Notes under the pieces: generated by a model
The model's database searches: none
What the model was told of the DNA's origin: nothing
Seen by the model: the letters and a program-made list of their open reading frames with translations, nothing else
In this document: positions 34,733-44,359 of the stretch, in pieces
How positions within the stretch are numbered: position 1 is the first letter of the stretch
Layout: the number at the start of each line of letters is the position of its first letter
Position numbers and translations under genes: made by a program
From: Allocoleopsis franciscana PCC 7113
Lineage (GTDB): Bacteria; Cyanobacteriota; Cyanobacteriia; Cyanobacteriales; Coleofasciculaceae
NCBI RefSeq assembly: GCF_000317515.1
Contig: NC_019738.1
Span: forward strand, 1,277,501 to 1,341,500
Direction: 5' to 3'
Length of the DNA stretch: 64,000 bases

Positions 34733-36055
34733 CTATTTAATTTTCAACCAATCTTTAATTTCTTGAACCAGCCAATCGCGTTCTAATTCCGCTAGAGGTG
34801 GAGCAATGGCACCAAACTTGTATTCTTGCACACCTGCTTGAAGCACAACTGTTGCCAGGGGATTACCATTAATGGTTATTGATTCATCACTTTTGCGAAC
34901 ACGATGAATGGCTGACGTTTTTCCCTGGATTTGTCGATAGCATATACCCAATAATTTCCACTTCATTACAAAGGAATCACGGTAGAGGCGGATGTCAACT
35001 TCCCCGAAAGCTGGCAATAACACCATACCCAGTGGTAATAAACCAGCTATCCAAAATAGCAATACAATTGGATTGAAACTCAACAATCCTATCGGGAAAG
35101 TTCCACCGTACCACACGAGTACCCAAAATAGTAAGAAAGTGTCTGACGCTTTAATTCCTCGCCCTGGAATTTTTAGATCAAGCTGAGAGGGAGATTTTTT
35201 ACATGAGATGCGGCTCCCGTAGGGTTGGTGGACGGGGAGAAAAGAATTAGGAATACGGCGACTGTTGAGAGCTTCTAAGGCTTGGTGAGCTGTAGTAAAT
35301 CGTTGCTCAACATCGGGTTCTGTTAGCCCTTCAATCCAGCGCACAAAATCAAGTTTGAGGCTTACTTTATCGCTAAACTGAATCCGCATATTTCGCTGTG
35401 GGAGATCGGCAGGCGGAGTTCCTGTGAGGAGATGAATTAAGGTTGCTCCCAAGGCATAAAGATCAGAGGCAGGAACAGATCGACCTCCGAACTGTTCCAT
35501 TGGGGCATAGCCATAAGTGCCAACGACTGTAAATGTCGCTCCCTCAACGGCGGCTCGGTCTTGTACGGCTCCAAAATCCACCAAATAAATCTTTTCATCC
35601 TCTCCCAAAATTAAGTTGCTGGGTTTGATGTCGCGGTGAAGGACAGCGGGACTAAGTTGGTGCAGATAAATCAAAATTTGCAATACATCCGTGGCAATTT
35701 TACGCACCTCTTGCTCAGAAAATTTTCGCCCCTGAGTCAACAATTCTTTGAGGGAAGAACCGGGAATATAATTTTGGACTAACCCAAACCAAAGAATGCG
35801 GTCATCGATCGAAAAATAATCGCGGTACTTGGGAATTTGAGGATGGTTAAGTTGCTTTAAAACATGGGCTTCTCGCTCAAACAGTTTGAGGTTATCCCAC
35901 TGTACCTGGTCACCAAATGCCAGGAGCTTGACAATGACTGGCTCAGGGGGTTGTTGCGCTAAATCGCCGGCTAACCAAGTCTGACGACCGGCATTCTGTC
36001 CTAATTGCTGTTTGAGTTGATAGCGATCGCGCAGTACCTGTCCTACTTGTAGCAT
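34733..36055 (-). CDS. Ser/Thr protein kinase with C-terminal membrane domain
   Basis: 440 residues from the ATG at 36055; a further 29 codons upstream lack resemblance to the family, so that start is preferred. Kinase domain about 1-265: Gly loop LGQNAGRQTW (degenerate), Lys in VIVKLL, catalytic HRDIKPSNLIL, DFGAVQD metal site and a proline-rich APMEQFGG activation end. Then a linker and two or three membrane helices (about 310-370), ending in a PH-like basic-hydrophobic tail. The reduced glycine loop is common in cyanobacterial kinases. Substrate unknown. Confidence 0.9.
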   Translation of the reverse strand: MLQVGQVLRDRYQLKQQLGQNAGRQTWLAGDLAQQPPEPVIVKLLAFGDQVQWDNLKLFEREAHVLKQLNHPQIPKYRDYFSIDDRILWFGLVQNYIPGSSLKELLTQGRKFSEQEVRKIATDVLQILIYLHQLSPAVLHRDIKPSNLILGEDEKIYLVDFGAVQDRAAVEGATFTVVGTYGYAPMEQFGGRSVPASDLYALGATLIHLLTGTPPADLPQRNMRIQFSDKVSLKLDFVRWIEGLTEPDVEQRFTTAHQALEALNSRRIPNSFLPVHQPYGSRISCKKSPSQLDLKIPGRGIKASDTFLLFWVLVWYGGTFPIGLLSFNPIVLLFWIAGLLPLGMVLLPAFGEVDIRLYRDSFVMKWKLLGICYRQIQGKTSAIHRVRKSDESITINGNPLATVVLQAGVQEYKFGAIAPPLAELERDWLVQEIKDWLKIK

Positions 36056-36118
36056 CTTGGAGCTACTCCAGCGAAAAGTTAAAAGGATAAGCTGTTGTGC
36101 CTGTAACTTGCATGACTC

Positions 36119-36145
36119 GGACAGGCAGGATGCCCATCCCACAAG
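36119..36145. repeat. dispersed palindrome, copy B
   Basis: GGACAGGCAGGATGCCCATCCCACAAG-type element, reverse complement similar to copy C at 42458-42486. Located upstream of the kinase gene. Confidence 0.6.
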
Positions 36146-36236
36146 AACTCTCTACTCTTGAAATCTGCAATTGAGATGATTGTTATCTTAACACTGGAAG
36201 TATAGACGTTCCTGAATGCAGCTACATCATTGGTGT

Positions 36237-36662
36237 TCAGTTTTGCGGGTGTCTTAGGCGATCGCGTTTTTTGGTTTGATCAATGGGTATTGTATCTATT
36301 GGTGATTTTGTAGAAATAGCATCTTGACATTTTGCCCTAATTCTTGTCAGGAATGGGAGAATAGAATCGGCGTATTGTTGTTGATGTTTGCCGTGGTCAA
36401 ATTCAACGGCATTCCATACCTGTTGTAGCTGTTCTTGAGTCAAGCATTTTTGGAGTTGACAGGCAACGGCATTTTTCCACTGTTCAATCTGGCGATAGCT
36501 GATAAATTGTCCTCCTTTGTCGAGGCGGTGGACAAATACGACATAGAGCCAGGATTCGATTTTTACGATTAGTGAAGATGGGATTTTCAATAATTTGGCA
36601 ATTTGATGTTTGGTGATGCGGAATTTTTGGGCGGGGTTGATGCGACGAAATAAGGTTGTCAT
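36237..36662 (-). CDS. unknown protein, possibly helix-turn-helix
   Basis: 141 residues, basic. KFRITKHQIAKLLKIPSSLIVKIE near residue 13 looks like a helix-turn-helix. The rest (YRQIEQWKNAVACQLQKCLTQEQLQQVW) is helical. C-terminus Lys/Arg rich. Follows the 166-residue gene on the same strand after 176 bases. No family recognised. Confidence 0.6.
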   Translation of the reverse strand: MTTLFRRINPAQKFRITKHQIAKLLKIPSSLIVKIESWLYVVFVHRLDKGGQFISYRQIEQWKNAVACQLQKCLTQEQLQQVWNAVEFDHGKHQQQYADSILPFLTRIRAKCQDAISTKSPIDTIPIDQTKKRDRLRHPQN

Positions 36663-36783
36663 AGTTGTTTAATTCTGTGTTTAATATAGCCCTTCTCGAT
36701 GGGATGAGATACAGTCTGACCTCTCTCCAAACTCCTCACTAAAGCTCCGGTCTCCTACAAGGAGAGAGGCTTTGATTCTTGCT

Positions 36784-36806
36784 CCCTCCCCTTAGTAAGG
36801 GGAGGG
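36784..36806. repeat. perfect 11-bp palindrome CCCTCCCCTTA/TAAGGGGAGGG
   Basis: Two perfect 11-base arms separated by one G, followed by GGGGAGGGG-like sequence. Resembles dispersed palindromic repeats of cyanobacterial genomes. Confidence 0.6.
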
Positions 36807-36838
36807 CTGGGGAGGGGTCTAGCTTTTGGGCAAAAGGC

Positions 36839-37333
36839 TTAATCTTCTTGTTGGTAAGTTGCTTGTTGCAGTTGTTCGCTGGGAACATCAAAGAGAACTT
36901 CAAATTTAACAGTAGGGATGAAGCGGTTGAGAAAGCGTCGATGATCTTCTGCGTCTTGACGATTGAAAAACCGGGCTACTGTATACCGTCGAGCATTGGG
37001 TAGGTGTCGGATAATTGCCCAAGGACGGGAGTAATCTTCAATTTGTGAATTACGTTCTTGGGGAGTTTTTAGGACTTCTCCCCTGATGTTGGTTAAGGTG
37101 CGCTCAATCAGTTGCCAAAGCTGTTGCCGTTCTGGGCTGGTATTGTTGGGTATCAATGTCCAATCGCTGATGGGTGCTGGTGCGAATGTGAGAATGTAAT
37201 CGTCCTGACCCTCTCGGCATAGTTTCCAGGATAAACGTCGGGTCTGTTTTTGGCATTTGTATCCCTGTTGGCGCATGGTTGCACAGATTCTGTCGCCCTC
37301 TGTTTGAAGGCGAAGCCAGTCGGAGTGTTTCAT
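36839..37333 (-). CDS. unknown 164-residue protein, probable third gene of an interrupted operon
   Basis: 164 residues from the ATG at 37333 (a TTG at 37339 also exists). Basic and polar; contains WKLCREGQDDYILTF, the IRHLPNARRYTVARFFNRQDAEDHRRFLNRF block, and an acidic end. No family recognised. Upstream, the insertion sequence begins 49 bases away at 37382. Removing it puts the TOPRIM-like gene's stop only 22 bases upstream, so it was probably cotranscribed with the AAA/TOPRIM pair. Confidence 0.6.
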   Translation of the reverse strand: MKHSDWLRLQTEGDRICATMRQQGYKCQKQTRRLSWKLCREGQDDYILTFAPAPISDWTLIPNNTSPERQQLWQLIERTLTNIRGEVLKTPQERNSQIEDYSRPWAIIRHLPNARRYTVARFFNRQDAEDHRRFLNRFIPTVKFEVLFDVPSEQLQQATYQQED

Positions 37334-37381
37334 TGTCAAAATCTGGGTAGTGTCTTCAAAAAGGGCGATCGCTTATTCGAT

Positions 37382-37410
37382 CCCACATTCCGCCCTTTGA
37401 CTGTCACAAG
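37382..37410. repeat. left terminal inverted repeat of the insertion sequence
   Basis: 29 bases, perfectly complementary to the right end at 39134-39162. Confidence 0.9.
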
Positions 37411-37537
37411 TAGATAATTTAGTGGAGGCAATCGAGGCAAACGCAACGTAAGTGGAGTTAAAGATAGCCTAGCCAGCTTTTTGGCCGAAACAGGATAATT
37501 GAACGGGAGTGGAAGGGCTAAGTCTTGGGGAGGGGGT

Positions 37538-38884
37538 GTGAAAGCAGCAGAAATGCAGGTAATGAACCTCGACCACTTGGGTCTGGTGGCAGGTATTATT
37601 GACGAAATCGGGCTGGTGGAACAAATAGACCTGCGGTTGGGGCAAGACAGCCGAGAAAAAGTCAGTGCAGGTCTTGTGGTCAAAGCAATGATTCTCAACG
37701 GACTGGGCTTTGTGTCAGCCCCACTGTACTTATTTAGTCGATTTTTTGAAGGGAAAGCTACAGAACACCTGATTGGAACCGGAGTCAAGCCAGAACATCT
37801 CAATGATGACCGCCTGGGACGAGTGCTTGATGAACTGTTCCTGGCAGGACTAACCCGTTGCTTCGTCAGCATTGCCATGAAAGCTATCGCCAAGTTTGGA
37901 GTGAGTATTGAGACAGCGCACTTAGACTCGACCTCATTTCATCTGCATGGCGAGTATGAAACAGCCAATGACGAAGTGGTAGTCACTCAAAAGACAGAAG
38001 ATGGCACAAGAGTAGAAATTGAGGTAGCGCCGAAAGCGATTCACCTAACGTATGGATATTCTCGTGACCATAGAAGTGACCTCAAACAATTCGTGATGAA
38101 TCTGATATGTGGTGGAGAGGGTGGTATACCGTTATTTTTAGAGATGGCAGATGGCAATCAAGACGACAAGACAAAGTTTGCCCATCTGTTTGAGGAGTTT
38201 CAGAAACAGTGGACTTTTGAGGGAATACACATAGCAGATAGTGCTTTGTACACTGCCGACAACCTCAAGCGGATGAAGCAGTTGAAATATCACACCCTAG
38301 AAGCAGTAGAAATCATTGAGCAAGACCATTACTCCCAACCGGGAAGACCAGCAAAGCAAACTCGACCCACTCACAAAACCTATCACATTCAAGCCACATT
38401 GGTAGTCAATGAAACTGTCCTAGAACAACAAAGACAGCAAGCGGGACGATTCATTCTCGCCACCAATGTCCTAGACAAGGAACAATTGAATAATGATGCA
38501 GTCCTGAGTGAGTACAAAGAGCAGCAGAGTACGGAACGGGGCTTTAGCTTTCTCAAAGACCCTCTGTTTTTTGCTGATAGTGTTTTCCTGAAAGACCCAG
38601 GTCGCATTGCTGCTGTAGGGATGGTTATGGGATTGTGTCTGTTGGTCTACAACTTGGGACAGGCAGCTTTACGTCAAGCCTTAGTTCAAGCTGATGAAAG
38701 CCTCCCTAATCAATTAAAAAAGCCGACTCAGCGTCCCACCCTCCGCTGGATATTTCAGTGTTTCCAAGCGGTGCATTTGTTAGTGATTGATGGGGTTGAG
38801 CAAATTGCCAATCTTACCGATGAACGCTTAAAGATTTTGCGCTTTTTCTCTCAAGCTTGCCGGGACTACTATCTATTGTGCTGA
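37538..38884 (+). CDS. IS1634 family transposase
   Basis: About 448 residues from the GTG at 37538, chosen because GGGAGGGG lies just before; an ATG at 37553 and a TTG at 37499 are alternatives. DNA-cleaving DDE transposase: NLDHLGLVAGIIDEIGLVEQID N-terminal DUF4277-like region, first Asp in HLDSTSFHLHGEY, second Asp in HIADSALYTADN and Glu in STERGFSFLKDPLFF. Complete and apparently intact, so the element may be active. Confidence 0.9.
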   Translation: MKAAEMQVMNLDHLGLVAGIIDEIGLVEQIDLRLGQDSREKVSAGLVVKAMILNGLGFVSAPLYLFSRFFEGKATEHLIGTGVKPEHLNDDRLGRVLDELFLAGLTRCFVSIAMKAIAKFGVSIETAHLDSTSFHLHGEYETANDEVVVTQKTEDGTRVEIEVAPKAIHLTYGYSRDHRSDLKQFVMNLICGGEGGIPLFLEMADGNQDDKTKFAHLFEEFQKQWTFEGIHIADSALYTADNLKRMKQLKYHTLEAVEIIEQDHYSQPGRPAKQTRPTHKTYHIQATLVVNETVLEQQRQQAGRFILATNVLDKEQLNNDAVLSEYKEQQSTERGFSFLKDPLFFADSVFLKDPGRIAAVGMVMGLCLLVYNLGQAALRQALVQADESLPNQLKKPTQRPTLRWIFQCFQAVHLLVIDGVEQIANLTDERLKILRFFSQACRDYYLLC

Positions 38885-39112
38885 GTTCTTCAAGTCATTG
38901 AAATACTTCAACAATTATTTCAGCAAAGTGATGCGTAGACGAGCTTTTAGTTAACGCATCAGGCTTTTCCTGATAGGAAACAGTTCACTTTATGTTGCCA
39001 GTTACTTGACTTTTATTGCTACTTGCTGCTTTTTGAGAACAAGCACCCGAAAAAAGTTAGCATCTCTCATCTCTAGAACGTTTCACTCGATTGAACTGGC
39101 CTGTGTTAGCCT

Positions 39113-39820
39113 TCAGTTCCACACAATTATCCGCTTGTGACAGTCAAAGGGCGGAATGTGGGTAACAATGTTTCTACTCTGAATTTCTTCTATAAAGGTT
39201 TTAAAGCTGGGGTTTTCTTTGTACAACTCCAATAAATTTCTTCGCTTACAATATTTCATTGAAATACTTCGATAATATTCAGGATTCTTATTATTAGTAT
39301 CAATCGTAAAACCTTCCTTTCTTTGAAGGGCTTGGTTTAAGGTAGACAAACAACTTTTAAATTTTGACTTTTTGTTATCCGTGTAATAGAGCGGAAGTAG
39401 CCAACACTCCATAGAATGTACAGCTATGGCAAAGATGATTTTATCTTCATACCTAGTGTAAAAATTCTCACCAATCAAGCCTTTGAATTTTTCGACCACC
39501 TTCTTAATCAACTGTTCAGGAGTAAATTCTCCATTTTCATCTCGATGAGGTACATTATAATGCTCTTCTGAAACGTCAGTATCTATGTGAATAATAATAT
39601 ACTCATTGAATTGAAATGCCTCTTTAAAATCCGTTGATTGGCAATACTCAAAAACTTGACTCCAACCACCAAAATTACTAGACCTATTAGCATCAGTGGC
39701 ATCCCTTAATGGTTGAAGCCAATTGATATCTATATCAGGATTAAAATACCCAGCTAAAATATTCTCAATAACAATTTGGTCAGTTAGCCCTTCAGCGATG
39801 CCTGCAAAAGTATTCTTCAT
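39113..39820 (-). CDS. TOPRIM-like partner protein, C-terminus replaced by insertion sequence
   Basis: 235 residues from the ATG at 39820, which begins one base after the AAA gene's stop; the nine upstream codons that overlap that gene are not needed. Features: GIAEGLTDQIVIENIL near the start recalls the TOPRIM Glu motif, and EYIIIHIDTDV near residue 80 recalls its DxD motif. AIAVHSMECWLLPLYY resembles DUF4276/RloB proteins. Only about 219 codons are original; after IVT the frame enters the insertion sequence's right inverted repeat and ends there. TOPRIM partners of AAA ATPases include nucleases of anti-phage systems (established); here it is inference. Confidence 0.7.
   Translation of the reverse strand: MKNTFAGIAEGLTDQIVIENILAGYFNPDIDINWLQPLRDATDANRSSNFGGWSQVFEYCQSTDFKEAFQFNEYIIIHIDTDVSEEHYNVPHRDENGEFTPEQLIKKVVEKFKGLIGENFYTRYEDKIIFAIAVHSMECWLLPLYYTDNKKSKFKSCLSTLNQALQRKEGFTIDTNNKNPEYYRSISMKYCKRRNLLELYKENPSFKTFIEEIQSRNIVTHIPPFDCHKRIIVWN
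39134..39162. repeat. right terminal inverted repeat of the insertion sequence
   Basis: 29 bases, perfectly complementary to the left end at 37382-37410. It codes the last residues of the truncated TOPRIM-like gene on the minus strand. Confidence 0.9.
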
Positions 39821-39821
39821 A

Positions 39822-40931
39822 CTAGAAACCTTTTGGAAGCCCCCCAATATAGCCTTTCATAAAAGCTTCTGATAATTTTATAGGTTTTTGCCCTTCCAAA
39901 GGTTCAGGTTTCAAAATCCGTTTAGCTTTAGTATGTCCTAGTTTATTTCGGTAAATCACAAAAAGTCTTTGCTCATCATCATCTAAATTTAATCCATCCA
40001 GAACTGCTGGATTGTGGGTTGTAAATATAGCTTGTTTATCGTACTTTTCTGCCATTTTTACTAACTCCTTAATTAACTGACTACATAGCTTTGGATTGAG
40101 GGAAGCATCAATGTTATCAATAGCAAAAAACTTAGGTGTATCATCGCTGATAAAAAGAGCGAAGTAGAACATTAAAAATAGAAAACCTTCATTAGAACTT
40201 CTTTGGTCAAAGTAAGGTATATCTGAATCTAAATACTTATCTTTTATTTGGACATTTTTTTCTATTTCGGCTAAACCACGAGGCATCTCGAAATCTTGAA
40301 ACCAATCTATAAGCTTAAGCTTTTCTTTGATTTCATAAATTCTATCTTGATTTTTATCTAGGCTTAAAATTTTCAAAAGTTTAAATAAACCTTCTCCTTT
40401 AATGCCTAACGGTTGGATTTGTCCTTCTTTTTCAAAGGTGCGTAATGAAAGGTTTTCAGGGGAATATATCAGAAATTTTTTTAAATATAGATTAAGCTGT
40501 TCTTTTTGAGTATTCTCGTTTATATATTCTTCCAGATATTTTTGAATATATTCTTGCGTTTTTTTTCCAATTAAATGCTTGAAATGGATATAATTTTTTT
40601 CAAACCAATTGGAATAGGGTTGATTATCATTCTGTAATGAGAAATTGAGACTTGTCTGAGAGTTAGCTTCCAACGATATTTTTATCTCTTGTGTTATATT
40701 GCTATGCTCAAAAGCAGAACGCATAAACTGAGGTTCTGTAACTCTAATTCCTCGTGAAGCCAAAAATTCATTATCTAGCTTGTCATTAGCTGCTGCTGAA
40801 GCTAAAGCGGTCGCTTCTAATATATTGCTTTTTCCACAACCATTCTCACCAATAAATACTGTTACCCGTCCCAATCTCAGCTTAAGTTGCTGAATTGATT
40901 TGTAGTTCTCTATTTTGATTTCTCTAATCAT
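39822..40931 (-). CDS. AAA family ATPase (OLD/RecF-like, AAA_21 type), defence-like
   Basis: 369 residues. Walker A is GENGCGKSN (G28-S35) in an EIKIENYKSIQQLKLRLG start typical of RecF/SMC-like ATPases. Near the end FFAIDNIDASLNPKL is the Walker B region, with Asn where Glu usually follows Asp, and TTHNPAVLDGLN is the H-loop. The middle is long and AT-rich, as in other accessory genes. ATPases of this class act with TOPRIM-type partners in several anti-phage systems (OLD, PARIS, Gabija). Stop and the partner's start are one base apart. Role inferred. Confidence 0.85.
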   Translation of the reverse strand: MIREIKIENYKSIQQLKLRLGRVTVFIGENGCGKSNILEATALASAAANDKLDNEFLASRGIRVTEPQFMRSAFEHSNITQEIKISLEANSQTSLNFSLQNDNQPYSNWFEKNYIHFKHLIGKKTQEYIQKYLEEYINENTQKEQLNLYLKKFLIYSPENLSLRTFEKEGQIQPLGIKGEGLFKLLKILSLDKNQDRIYEIKEKLKLIDWFQDFEMPRGLAEIEKNVQIKDKYLDSDIPYFDQRSSNEGFLFLMFYFALFISDDTPKFFAIDNIDASLNPKLCSQLIKELVKMAEKYDKQAIFTTHNPAVLDGLNLDDDEQRLFVIYRNKLGHTKAKRILKPEPLEGQKPIKLSEAFMKGYIGGLPKGF

Positions 40932-41029
40932 ACTTGATACATAATATTTTCAGTGTTGACGAGGATAGCGTGAAGCGAAGCTATAGCGAGGAACGAGCGT
41001 CAGCGCTGCTCCTTTCAGCAGAGCGCACT

Positions 41030-41587
41030 TCAACCCAACGTCAACCAGCCAAAAACCTGCTCCGCAGTAAGTTCTAACTCAATTTTATTTAGAATTGGCA
41101 ATGGTGTAGCTCCTGTTAACAATTCCACTCGCTGATTGGGAAAGATGACGAGGATGCTGACTTCTTCTGGATCGATTAACCATCCTAGCTCAGTGCCGTG
41201 ACGCGAACAATGAAGCAGCTTGCCAAGGACTTTGGTTTGTCTTTGATCTGGAGAAAGAATTTCTATTGCCCAATCGGGATGTGTTTCAAAGCGGTTCGCA
41301 ATTTGACCGGATGAATCTAAGGGGATTCGTTCCCACCGAAACACGGCAATATCGGGGACGGTTGAATCACCCCCAAAAGTGCAGCGTAGTTCTGGGAATG
41401 CTAAAGCAATTTTTTGGGGTTTACCAACTTTATTGATTGCCTCGCACAATTCAAACTGAATTAGACTGTGTTTACCTTGAGGCATTGGCTTCTGAATGAT
41501 TTCCCCATTGATAAATTCTGATGCTGGTTTGGTTTCTGGGAGTTTGAGGAACTCCTCTAAGCTCAGGGTTTGAGCAGCAGTAGTCAT
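41030..41587 (-). CDS. Uma2 family endonuclease (DUF820)
   Basis: 185 residues of the PD-(D/E)XK-like Uma2 family, numerous in cyanobacteria and of unproven biology. Visible: MTTAAQTLSLEEFLKLPET start, EFINGEIIQKPMP, LIQFELCEAIN, SVPDIAVFRWE-like segment (VPDIAVFRWERIP, near residue 110), then HPDWAIEILSPDQRQTK and GTELGWLIDPEE near the end. Motif order matches the family. Confidence 0.9.
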   Translation of the reverse strand: MTTAAQTLSLEEFLKLPETKPASEFINGEIIQKPMPQGKHSLIQFELCEAINKVGKPQKIALAFPELRCTFGGDSTVPDIAVFRWERIPLDSSGQIANRFETHPDWAIEILSPDQRQTKVLGKLLHCSRHGTELGWLIDPEEVSILVIFPNQRVELLTGATPLPILNKIELELTAEQVFGWLTLG

Positions 41588-41760
41588 AGTGTGCCTCGCG
41601 CTTAGGGTTAGCGGCGATCGCTACCTTTCTTTAGACTATATCCCCACAGATTGAACTTAAACCAATCCCAGGCAGAGCCAATACATCTTGACAACTTCCT
41701 CTCAAAATGAGAGCATCAAAGAACAATTTATATATTTATTGCATATGAAAGTAAAGACAA

Positions 41761-42060
41761 ATGCACTTAATTGCGATTCGCCACCTCCGAGCTGATGCTG
41801 CCCAGTACCCGGATGTCACAAAGCAAATCGAGGCATGGTACGCAACCGTCAACAAAGCAGAATGGCAGAACTTGGAGGACGTTCGTAAGATTTACCGAGA
41901 TGCTGAAGCCGTTGGAAACTTCACCGTCTTCAATATCAAAGGCAATGACTATCGCCTGATTGTCGGTATCGACTACGAAAGCCAAACGGTTTACTACAAA
42001 TACTTCTTAACTCATGCCGAATACGACAAAGGCAAGTGGAAAAATGACCCTTACTTTTGA
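41761..42060 (+). CDS. higB: HigB-family type II toxin
   Basis: 99 residues, RelE-like mRNA interferase of the HigB_toxin type: MHLIAIRHLRADAAQYPDVTKQIEAWY, then WQNLEDVRKIYRDAEAVGNFTVFNIKGNDYRLIVGIDY and YYKYFLTHAEYDKGKW near the end. In this family the toxin cuts mRNA on the ribosome (established). Toxin precedes antitoxin, and the genes overlap by 17 bases, suggesting translational coupling. Starts at the ATG at 41761. Confidence 0.92.
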   Translation: MHLIAIRHLRADAAQYPDVTKQIEAWYATVNKAEWQNLEDVRKIYRDAEAVGNFTVFNIKGNDYRLIVGIDYESQTVYYKYFLTHAEYDKGKWKNDPYF

Positions 42061-42442
42061 CCAAGATGCTTATGGCAATCTACTCGCTGAAGTCGCTCCG
42101 AAAGTGATTGAGACAGAGGAGGAGTATGATCGCGCCTTGGCAGTGGCAGAGCGGCTAACTTTTAAGAAAAATCGTACTCCAGAGGAGCGGACGTTACACA
42201 AATTGCTAGTGATGCTAATTGAATCGTATGAGGCACAGAACTATCCGATGGATCAATCTGCACCTCATGAGATTCTCCAACACATCTTGGAAGCCAGTGG
42301 CACTCGTCAAGCTGACTTGGTGGGTGTTATTGGATCGAGCGGTGTGGTGTCCGAAGTTGTGAATGGTAAGCGATCGATTAGTAAGGCACAAGCTAAGGCG
42401 CTTGGCGATTATTTCAAGGTGTCGCCGACGCTATTTATCTAA
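42044..42442 (+). CDS. higA: HigA-family antitoxin
   Basis: 132 residues from the ATG at 42044, chosen because the upstream ATG would lie deep inside the toxin gene and MTLTFDQDAYGNLLAEV is a normal start. C-terminal helix-turn-helix: SGTRQADLVGVIGSSGVVSEVVNGKRSISKAQAKALGDYFKVSP (XRE-like). Binds and neutralises the toxin and represses the operon. Ends before the palindrome at 42458. Confidence 0.9.
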   Translation: MTLTFDQDAYGNLLAEVAPKVIETEEEYDRALAVAERLTFKKNRTPEERTLHKLLVMLIESYEAQNYPMDQSAPHEILQHILEASGTRQADLVGVIGSSGVVSEVVNGKRSISKAQAKALGDYFKVSPTLFI

Positions 42443-42457
42443 TCATCTGTTAAAACT

Positions 42458-42486
42458 CTTGTGGGATGGGCATCTTGCCCGTCCCA
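42458..42486. repeat. dispersed palindrome, copy C
   Basis: CTTGTGGGATGGGCATCTTGCCCGTCCCA: TGGGATGGGCA and TGCCCGTCCCA form an 11-bp stem with one G-T pair. Related to the elements at 22166-22193 and 36119-36145. May act as the higA terminator. Confidence 0.65.
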
Positions 42487-42531
42487 ACTAGAGCAAGTTA
42501 AATCTGAAATCGCTGATTGCCACTGTCAACT

Positions 42532-44154
42532 TCAACAAGGTTGCCGCATCCCCCTTCCCTCCACATAATCCGCATAAATCATCTGCGAAACCTTGGGCGG
42601 CGTATCCCCAACATGAAACGCACGTGCACGATCTTCAATTACCCGATCCGAATTCGTCACTCGCTCAAATTGCCGCTTGTGTTCCGCCCAAGATTCCACA
42701 ACCATCGTCTCCACAAACCGACCGGGGTCAGATAAATCTTGGTACAATCCCCATTGAATCGCCCCATCTCGACGACGAATTAAACTCAGTGCCTGCATCG
42801 CCTTGGTAAATTCCTCAGCATTATCGGCATCAATGCGATACTCCAGTGTAACCATGACCGGCCCATCATTCGGGCAAGGCTCAAAAGCCTGAATCGGCTG
42901 ATTCCAGTGTAGCGAGGCAGATAAGTCGAATTTCTCCACACACCGCAGACGATAGCGAGTCGTCAGTCCCACACACACCATCAATCCTATAGCAGCGGCA
43001 GTGAGGGCAGTGGAGATTCCAGTCCGTTGTGCGATCGCACCCCATAATAAACTCCCCAGTGCCATGCATCCCTGGAACACCAACATCTGAGTGGCGATTG
43101 CTCTGGCACGTACCCAAGTGGGAACAGCGGTTTGAGCCGACACACTCAAACTCACCATCACAGATAGGGATGCAATCCCCACCACAAACATTACCCCACA
43201 GATCAGGTAGACGTTGCGGACAGAGGCTAACACCAGCATCATCGCACCCATCAGCAGCGATGCCCCGGCAACCAAATGGTCAATCGAAGTCTTTTGCCGC
43301 ACCTTGGGGATAATAAACGCTCCCGTTAACCCACCAATCCCCCAGAAGCCTAGTATTATACCATACCCTAAGGCATCCAGACCTAATTCTCTGCGTCCTA
43401 ACAGGGGTAATAAGGCAAACAATGCACTGGCAAACAGAATGTAAGCGGCTGTACGAATGTACACCGTCTGAAGCAGGGGAGCGAAACGCGCATAACGAAT
43501 CCCGGCTTGGATAGCTCCCACAAACCGTTCGGCGGGTAAGGCACTGGTTTGGGTTGTTCTTTGCCAACGATAAAGCACCAGCATTACCGCCACAAATGAA
43601 GCCGCATTTAACAGAAAAACAACACCCGTGCTTGTCGCCGCAATCACTATCCCCGCCACAGCCGGGCCAATGGAACGTGATAAGTTAATCACAATCCCAC
43701 TTAAGGTGACGGCGGAGGAAAGTTCCTCTTTCGCCACCAATTCCGGGACAATCGCTTGCCAGACGGGCATATTCATCGCACTGCCGACACTGAGGGCAAA
43801 GGTGAGTACTAGCAATATCCAGGGGGTAGTGATACCTGTAACCGTTAATACTCCAAGCAATGCGGCTACAACCAGCATCCAACCTTGGGTAAACAACAGC
43901 ATCTTGCGCCGATCTACCACATCTGCGATCGCACCGGCGGGTAACGCCAGTAGAAAAAACGGCAAGCTTGATGCCGCCTGCATCAGTGCCACTAAAAAAG
44001 GTGAAGGCGAGAGAGAAGTCATCAGCCATGCAGCCCCCACATCATGCATCCAAGTGCCAATGCTGGACACCGCAGATGCCATCCAAAGGGCACGAAAAAC
44101 AGGCTGACGAAGGGGACTCCAAGTAGATGTAGGCGTGATTGTTGATGCGTTCAT
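42532..44154 (-). CDS. MFS exporter fused to a C-terminal monooxygenase-like domain
   Basis: 540 residues. Twelve-helix major facilitator (about 20-400) of the MFS_3/enterobactin-exporter type: SSIGTWMHDVGAAWLMTS, RADRRKMLLF-like DVVDRRKML, GGLTGAFI. A soluble domain follows (about 430-530): VMVTLEYRIDADNAEEFTKAMQALSLIRRRDGAIQWGLYQDLSDPGRFVETMVVESWAEHKRQ, an ABM/dimeric alpha-beta barrel-like unit. The fusion recurs in the family and could let the pump act on its substrate. Substrate unknown. Confidence 0.92.
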   Translation of the reverse strand: MNASTITPTSTWSPLRQPVFRALWMASAVSSIGTWMHDVGAAWLMTSLSPSPFLVALMQAASSLPFFLLALPAGAIADVVDRRKMLLFTQGWMLVVAALLGVLTVTGITTPWILLVLTFALSVGSAMNMPVWQAIVPELVAKEELSSAVTLSGIVINLSRSIGPAVAGIVIAATSTGVVFLLNAASFVAVMLVLYRWQRTTQTSALPAERFVGAIQAGIRYARFAPLLQTVYIRTAAYILFASALFALLPLLGRRELGLDALGYGIILGFWGIGGLTGAFIIPKVRQKTSIDHLVAGASLLMGAMMLVLASVRNVYLICGVMFVVGIASLSVMVSLSVSAQTAVPTWVRARAIATQMLVFQGCMALGSLLWGAIAQRTGISTALTAAAIGLMVCVGLTTRYRLRCVEKFDLSASLHWNQPIQAFEPCPNDGPVMVTLEYRIDADNAEEFTKAMQALSLIRRRDGAIQWGLYQDLSDPGRFVETMVVESWAEHKRQFERVTNSDRVIEDRARAFHVGDTPPKVSQMIYADYVEGRGMRQPC

Positions 44155-44227
44155 GAAACCTTGGGAGTGAAGGACGTGAACAACTGCGGCACTCCTATGG
44201 AGGGGCGATCGCTAACGAAGGTTTCAA

Positions 44228-44359
44228 TTAGAATAACTGCTTATCTGGCTCCTTGTTGAGAGGCGACTGAGTCGTTTGAGGTAGCGCAGTAACTCGAATG
44301 GAAAGGATTTTCTCTTCTTCGCTGAGTTGCTCAATGAGAGGGACAATATCCTGAAGCAT
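44228..44359 (-). CDS. small 43-residue reading frame
   Basis: 43 residues from ATG at 44359 to TAA: MLQDIVPLIEQLSEEEKILSIRVTALP and a Lys/Gln/Leu end. The opening resembles short cyanobacterial antitoxin-like peptides (IxxLIEQLSxxEK). Weak ribosome site, no partner toxin visible. Low confidence. Confidence 0.4.
   Translation of the reverse strand: MLQDIVPLIEQLSEEEKILSIRVTALPQTTQSPLNKEPDKQLF

Follow-up and report, generated by a model that had tools for sequence, protein, structure and literature searches.

The DNA analyzed in this work is a 64,000-nt stretch of the Allocoleopsis franciscana PCC 7113 genome (contig NC_019738.1, positions 1,277,501 to 1,341,500), referred to below as the window and numbered from its first base. 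It contains an ATPase gene, a gene for a partner protein that follows one base further on, an insertion element of 1,781 base pairs (bp), and a third gene of 164 codons (Table 1); these sequence features, listed in the original prediction, were all confirmed. A single base separates the stop codon of the ATPase gene (39824-39822) from the partner ATG (39820-39818), and the two genes are probably translationally coupled. The host part of the partner gene comprises 219 codons (39820-39164) and contains the AEGLTD, HIDTDV, and HSMECWLL motifs; the present open reading frame (ORF) runs on for 16 element-derived residues and encodes 235 amino acids.

Table 1. Features of the locus, in window coordinates.
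Feature	Position	Strand	Basis
ATPase gene, AAA/ABC-type, 369 aa, PDC-M31A-like	39822..40931	(-)	PADLOC PDC-M31A; Pfam AAA_21/AAA_15; Walker A, signature, and Walker B motifs
Partner gene, TOPRIM-like, PDC-M31B-like	39113..39820	(-)	PDC-M31B profile; AlphaFold2 model; VIA-align
IS1634-family element	37382..39162	(+)	Transposase 37499-38884; inverted ends 37382-37426 / 39118-39162
About 8 bases at the module/chromosome junction	37374..37381		G001 colinearity stops at ~37373
Acquired module (element, partner, and ATPase)	37374..40952		Lies between conserved flanks; right end approximate
Third gene, 164 aa, resident chromosomal, large paralogous family	36839..37333	(-)	Paralogs; G001 ortholog
141-aa gene, recurrent downstream neighbor of the third gene	36237..36662	(-)	13 places in own genome

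The inverted ends of the element are 45 nt long and 91% complementary, and its transposase belongs to the IS1634 family (NCBIfam NF033559, 311.6 bits versus a cut-off of 100). The 7.97-Mb genome has five complete copies of the element and a partial one. A 6-bp target duplication flanks three of the four other full copies and is absent at the window copy, which makes an adjacent deletion or recombination likely there. The remaining full copy without a target duplication (L081, G000:C1:3527350-3529550) suggests that deletions or recombination occur at copies of this element. Close to the module, at 41761-42442, there are two small genes on the (+) strand that we take to resemble a HigB/HigA-type pair.

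The ATPase was best matched by the PADLOC profile PDC-M31A (E = 1.2e-78; next best profile, 2e-30) and was also recognized by Pfam AAA_21 and AAA_15. Its motifs are a Walker A (GENGCGKS), a signature (SSNEG), a Walker B ending in D272-N273, and H306. A comparison of 22 ATPase sequences shows conservation of the Walker A, of a signature resembling SxNEG, and of D272, which is followed by Asn in every sequence. In ABC-type ATPases, the position following the Walker B Asp is usually occupied by the catalytic Glu. Since position 273 carries Asn instead, a cycle of ATP hydrolysis is doubtful, and the sequence points more to ATP being bound and sensed than to its rapid hydrolysis.

The best PADLOC profile for the partner was PDC-M31B (E = 7.2e-14). 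Residues E10, G11, T13, D14, D80, D82, and W140 are invariant in all 14 diverse partner sequences that were aligned. In the AlphaFold2 model (pLDDT 84.6, pTM 0.84), secondary structure elements follow the order beta-alpha-beta-alpha-beta-alpha-beta, which we take to be the TOPRIM topology. The model also shows the TOPRIM residue pattern, with a conserved Glu (E10) following strand 1 and a DxD (D80/D82) where strand 3 ends. When 997 chains were re-aligned to the model with VIA-align, the top four rows were TOPRIM regions of OLD and GajA: OLD from Burkholderia (Z 7.0, rmsd 4.6, 161 aligned; a Z of ~7 is by itself not decisive), OLD from Thermus (Z 6.3, rmsd 4.0, 135 aligned), and GajA (Z 5.8 and 5.7). 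A Foldseek search with the model gave no match at E <= 1e-3, a search of the partner profile against sequences of solved structures gave weak, unrelated matches, and NCBIfam and PHROGs yielded no useful family. Because the motifs and the top structural rows agree, a TOPRIM-like fold is likely for the modeled protein.

Besides the window, we found 21 intact adjacent pairs (22 loci with the window), in which the ATPase gene lies directly upstream of the partner gene. Eight are cyanobacterial loci, two are on plasmids (a Pseudanabaena plasmid and a 10-kb mobilizable plasmid of Acinetobacter lwoffii), and eleven are on viral contigs, where several adjoin phage portal, terminase, baseplate, or endolysin genes. 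The PDC-M31A and PDC-M31B profiles also matched relatives from plasmids, prophages, and cyanobacteria. The pair is rare in cyanobacteria; strong matches occur in 7 of 386 genomes, a count that includes the window's own genome. Two relatives (G012 and G016) are decayed; at the G016 locus (L035 / L090), an internal deletion joins ATPase residues 1-43 to the partner. Small genes lie downstream of the pair at L087 and L088; we take those at L087 to resemble a toxin-antitoxin pair that includes a PIN-type protein. The originally predicted pairing of an AAA ATPase with a TOPRIM-like protein, known from anti-phage systems, is thus supported by the PDC-M31A/B profiles, the model, the structural rows, and the relatives.

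Among known systems, PDC-M31 is the closest: both window proteins match its A and B profiles best, and the genes are adjacent and in the same order. The window locus differs by the element-derived C terminus of its partner, and PDC-M31 itself is a computational candidate. PARIS likewise has separate adjacent genes for an ATPase (AriA) and a TOPRIM-type protein (AriB), and the window ATPase matches AriA at E = 5.7e-29; however, it scores far better with PDC-M31A, and the partner has no match to the AriB profile at E <= 1. AbiL (AbiLi/AbiLii) and RloA/RloB-type pairs combine an AAA protein with an OLD_TOPRIM-related partner, and the window ATPase matches AbiLi (E = 1.8e-24), whereas its partner matches no AbiLii or RloB profile in PADLOC or Pfam. 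The OLD nuclease and GajA of Gabija provide the closest solved folds for the partner and have a similar set of acidic motifs. The partner also weakly resembles Pfam DUF4276 (E = 4.4e-4), the annotation given to the Pseudanabaena plasmid homolog, but its 21.0 bits are under the gathering cut-off of 30.2.

The original prediction placed the third gene in one operon with the pair, as a possible new defence component. We found it beside none of the tested relatives of the pair. In six genomes that have both families (G005, G012, G016, G020, G051, and G231), they are never adjacent. Another genome of the same genus (G001, contig C12) is colinear with window positions 34746-37373 and 41001-44295 at 93 to 95% identity and contains the third gene (93% identical) and the 36237-36662 gene, without the module; the slot that the module occupies is defined from this one genome. 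In place of the module, the G001 flanks enclose a DUF4265 gene and small genes of the RHH type. The GC content of the ATPase and partner genes is 0.32-0.33, compared to 0.47 for the third gene and ~0.45 for the surroundings; dN/dS of the third gene is 0.19. A three-gene defence operon of ATPase, TOPRIM partner, and 164-residue protein, later split by the element, would account for the shared strand of the genes and for the short distance that results when the element's flanks are joined. Such an operon is nevertheless very improbable given the absence of the third gene from the tested relatives and its separation from the pair in the six genomes, its presence together with RHH-type genes and without the module in G001, the large GC difference, its 34 paralogous places, and its own recurrent neighbor, the 36237-36662 gene. 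The module does not include the third gene, which is a resident gene of a separate repeated cassette (a small DNA-binding gene, a third-gene homolog, and sometimes a homolog of the 36237-36662 gene) and stands next to the pair by chance. The window copy of this gene has lost the RHH-type genes that are still present at this site in G001.

The flank join underlying the operon idea was recomputed by script. The arithmetic proved right (227 residues, a TGA at 37358-37356, and 22 bases from there to the third gene's ATG at 37333), but the joined sequence is not native. As far as 37373, the sequence is chromosomal flank of the third gene, and this flank is also found in the module-free G001; the TGA was therefore never the partner's stop. 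The reconstructed tail ends in ...NRISDRPF, unlike the partners of intact relatives, which end in ...RNI(V/Q)IEEDD or similar. This difference and the absence of the third gene beside relatives of the pair are two of the outcomes that the original prediction named as refuting it. Excision of the element as a way of restoring the original tail was rejected, since the window copy lacks a target duplication and the flank on its left comes from the other side of the junction. The junction bases at 37374-37381 have no counterpart in G001 and may either be left over from the partner tail or derive from elsewhere.

The original prediction also considered the system probably inactive. We found no support for this: the replacement affects only the last few partner residues, which are variable and unstructured. 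The lost residues form a short last stretch, which varies among relatives and is coil at the end of the model, and every invariant residue of the partner is retained. A defence remnant made nonfunctional by the element is an alternative to which we assign a low probability. The element does interrupt the partner gene at its 3′ end, with a possible effect on mRNA stability, and degraded copies of the pair occur elsewhere (the internal deletion in G016 and a disrupted copy in G012); however, the loss is confined to this variable tail, all invariant residues are kept, and the ORF is open to 235 amino acids. The dN/dS value of 0.13 for both ATPase and partner indicates purifying selection and reflects long-term history rather than the state since the insertion.

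We favor, with a probability of roughly 0.75, the interpretation that an acquired two-gene module of the PDC-M31 type, a defence candidate, occupies a slot in the chromosome next to a resident gene unrelated to it. Of the two module genes, the first would encode an ABC-type ATPase and the second a TOPRIM nuclease-like effector, with the same division of ATPase and TOPRIM-type protein between adjacent genes as in class 4 OLD (PARIS; PMC12796447). Related AAA:TOPRIM_OLD pairs act as antitoxin:toxin in neutralization assays, and AbiL, with AbiLii as its TOPRIM effector, works by abortive infection (PMC10440598). By analogy with these pairs, AbiL, and PARIS, the most likely mechanism would be one in which the ATPase keeps the TOPRIM effector restrained until a trigger from a phage appears. 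The ATPase would bind ATP and hold the TOPRIM protein in check; the trigger would alter the complex and release the effector, whose putative E10/D80/D82 metal site would then cut nucleic acid, aborting the infection. In this interpretation, the IS1634-family element inserted at or close to the partner's 3′ end, so that 16 other residues stand in place of the last few, and the predicted fold and the catalytic residues are unaffected. A literature search for PDC-M31 returned no paper naming it or testing a member for defence, and a search for DUF4276 with defence or AAA ATPase returned nothing. Two other PADLOC PDC candidates were inactive in the model tested (PMC12409345).

The pair may also serve as a toxin-antitoxin or mobile-element maintenance module, with a TOPRIM toxin and an ATPase antitoxin, rather than as a dedicated phage defence system. 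Its presence on small mobilizable plasmids and in prophages and the antitoxin:toxin behavior of published AAA:TOPRIM_OLD pairs are consistent with this possibility. However, the two functions overlap, and both the location of the pair at prophage cargo sites and its profile similarity to AriA, AbiLi, and HEC-01 favor defence; we regard this alternative as rather unlikely.

The third gene belongs to a family that was found in 36 of 194 genomes, in part of the phylum, with ~34 matching places in its own genome and 25 in G001 (25 to 34 per genome in the genus). Small XRE, RHH, or other HTH genes recurrently adjoin its copies (own-genome loci L009-L028 and L136-L139; L073), the neighbors being taken from genome stretches. 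The HTH_3 profile was matched by 19 of the 79 small ORFs within 1.5 kb of own-genome copies versus 0 of 50 farther away (Fisher p 5e-5; the ORFs are not independent, several coming from each locus). Third-gene copies in other cyanobacteria likewise have RHH or HTH-like genes next to them (L094, L096, and L098). The family of the 36237-36662 gene, whose product has no Pfam match, occupies 13 places in the window's own genome, 7 of which lie 27 to 183 bp downstream of a third-gene paralog.

An AlphaFold2 model of the third protein, built from seven sequences (pLDDT 76.5), has two domains: an N-terminal alpha-beta4-alpha domain and a C-terminal beta-beta-alpha-beta domain with a VARFFNRQDAEDH motif. 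Foldseek found nothing for this model at E <= 1e-3, and NCBIfam and PHROGs gave no useful family. VIA-align produced KA1-like and RnlA-type rows with Z <8, which may reflect merely a common arrangement. We tentatively suggest that the family forms an undescribed, heavily duplicated cyanobacterial cassette and possibly a new family of toxin-antitoxin-like or self-regulating modules. Such a cassette might consist of a small XRE, RHH, or other HTH gene, mostly divergent, a third-gene homolog, and sometimes a gene of the 36237-36662 type; its toxin-antitoxin-like or self-regulating function is a guess.

The kind of pair present in the window is already known, being listed by PADLOC as a candidate phage-defence system. 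Our results add a cyanobacterial, plasmid, and prophage distribution to PDC-M31, give it a conserved catalytic set that includes the unusual Walker B Asn, and remove a false third component from the candidate system. The neighboring third-gene family has dozens of copies per genome and is recurrently paired with small DNA-binding genes.
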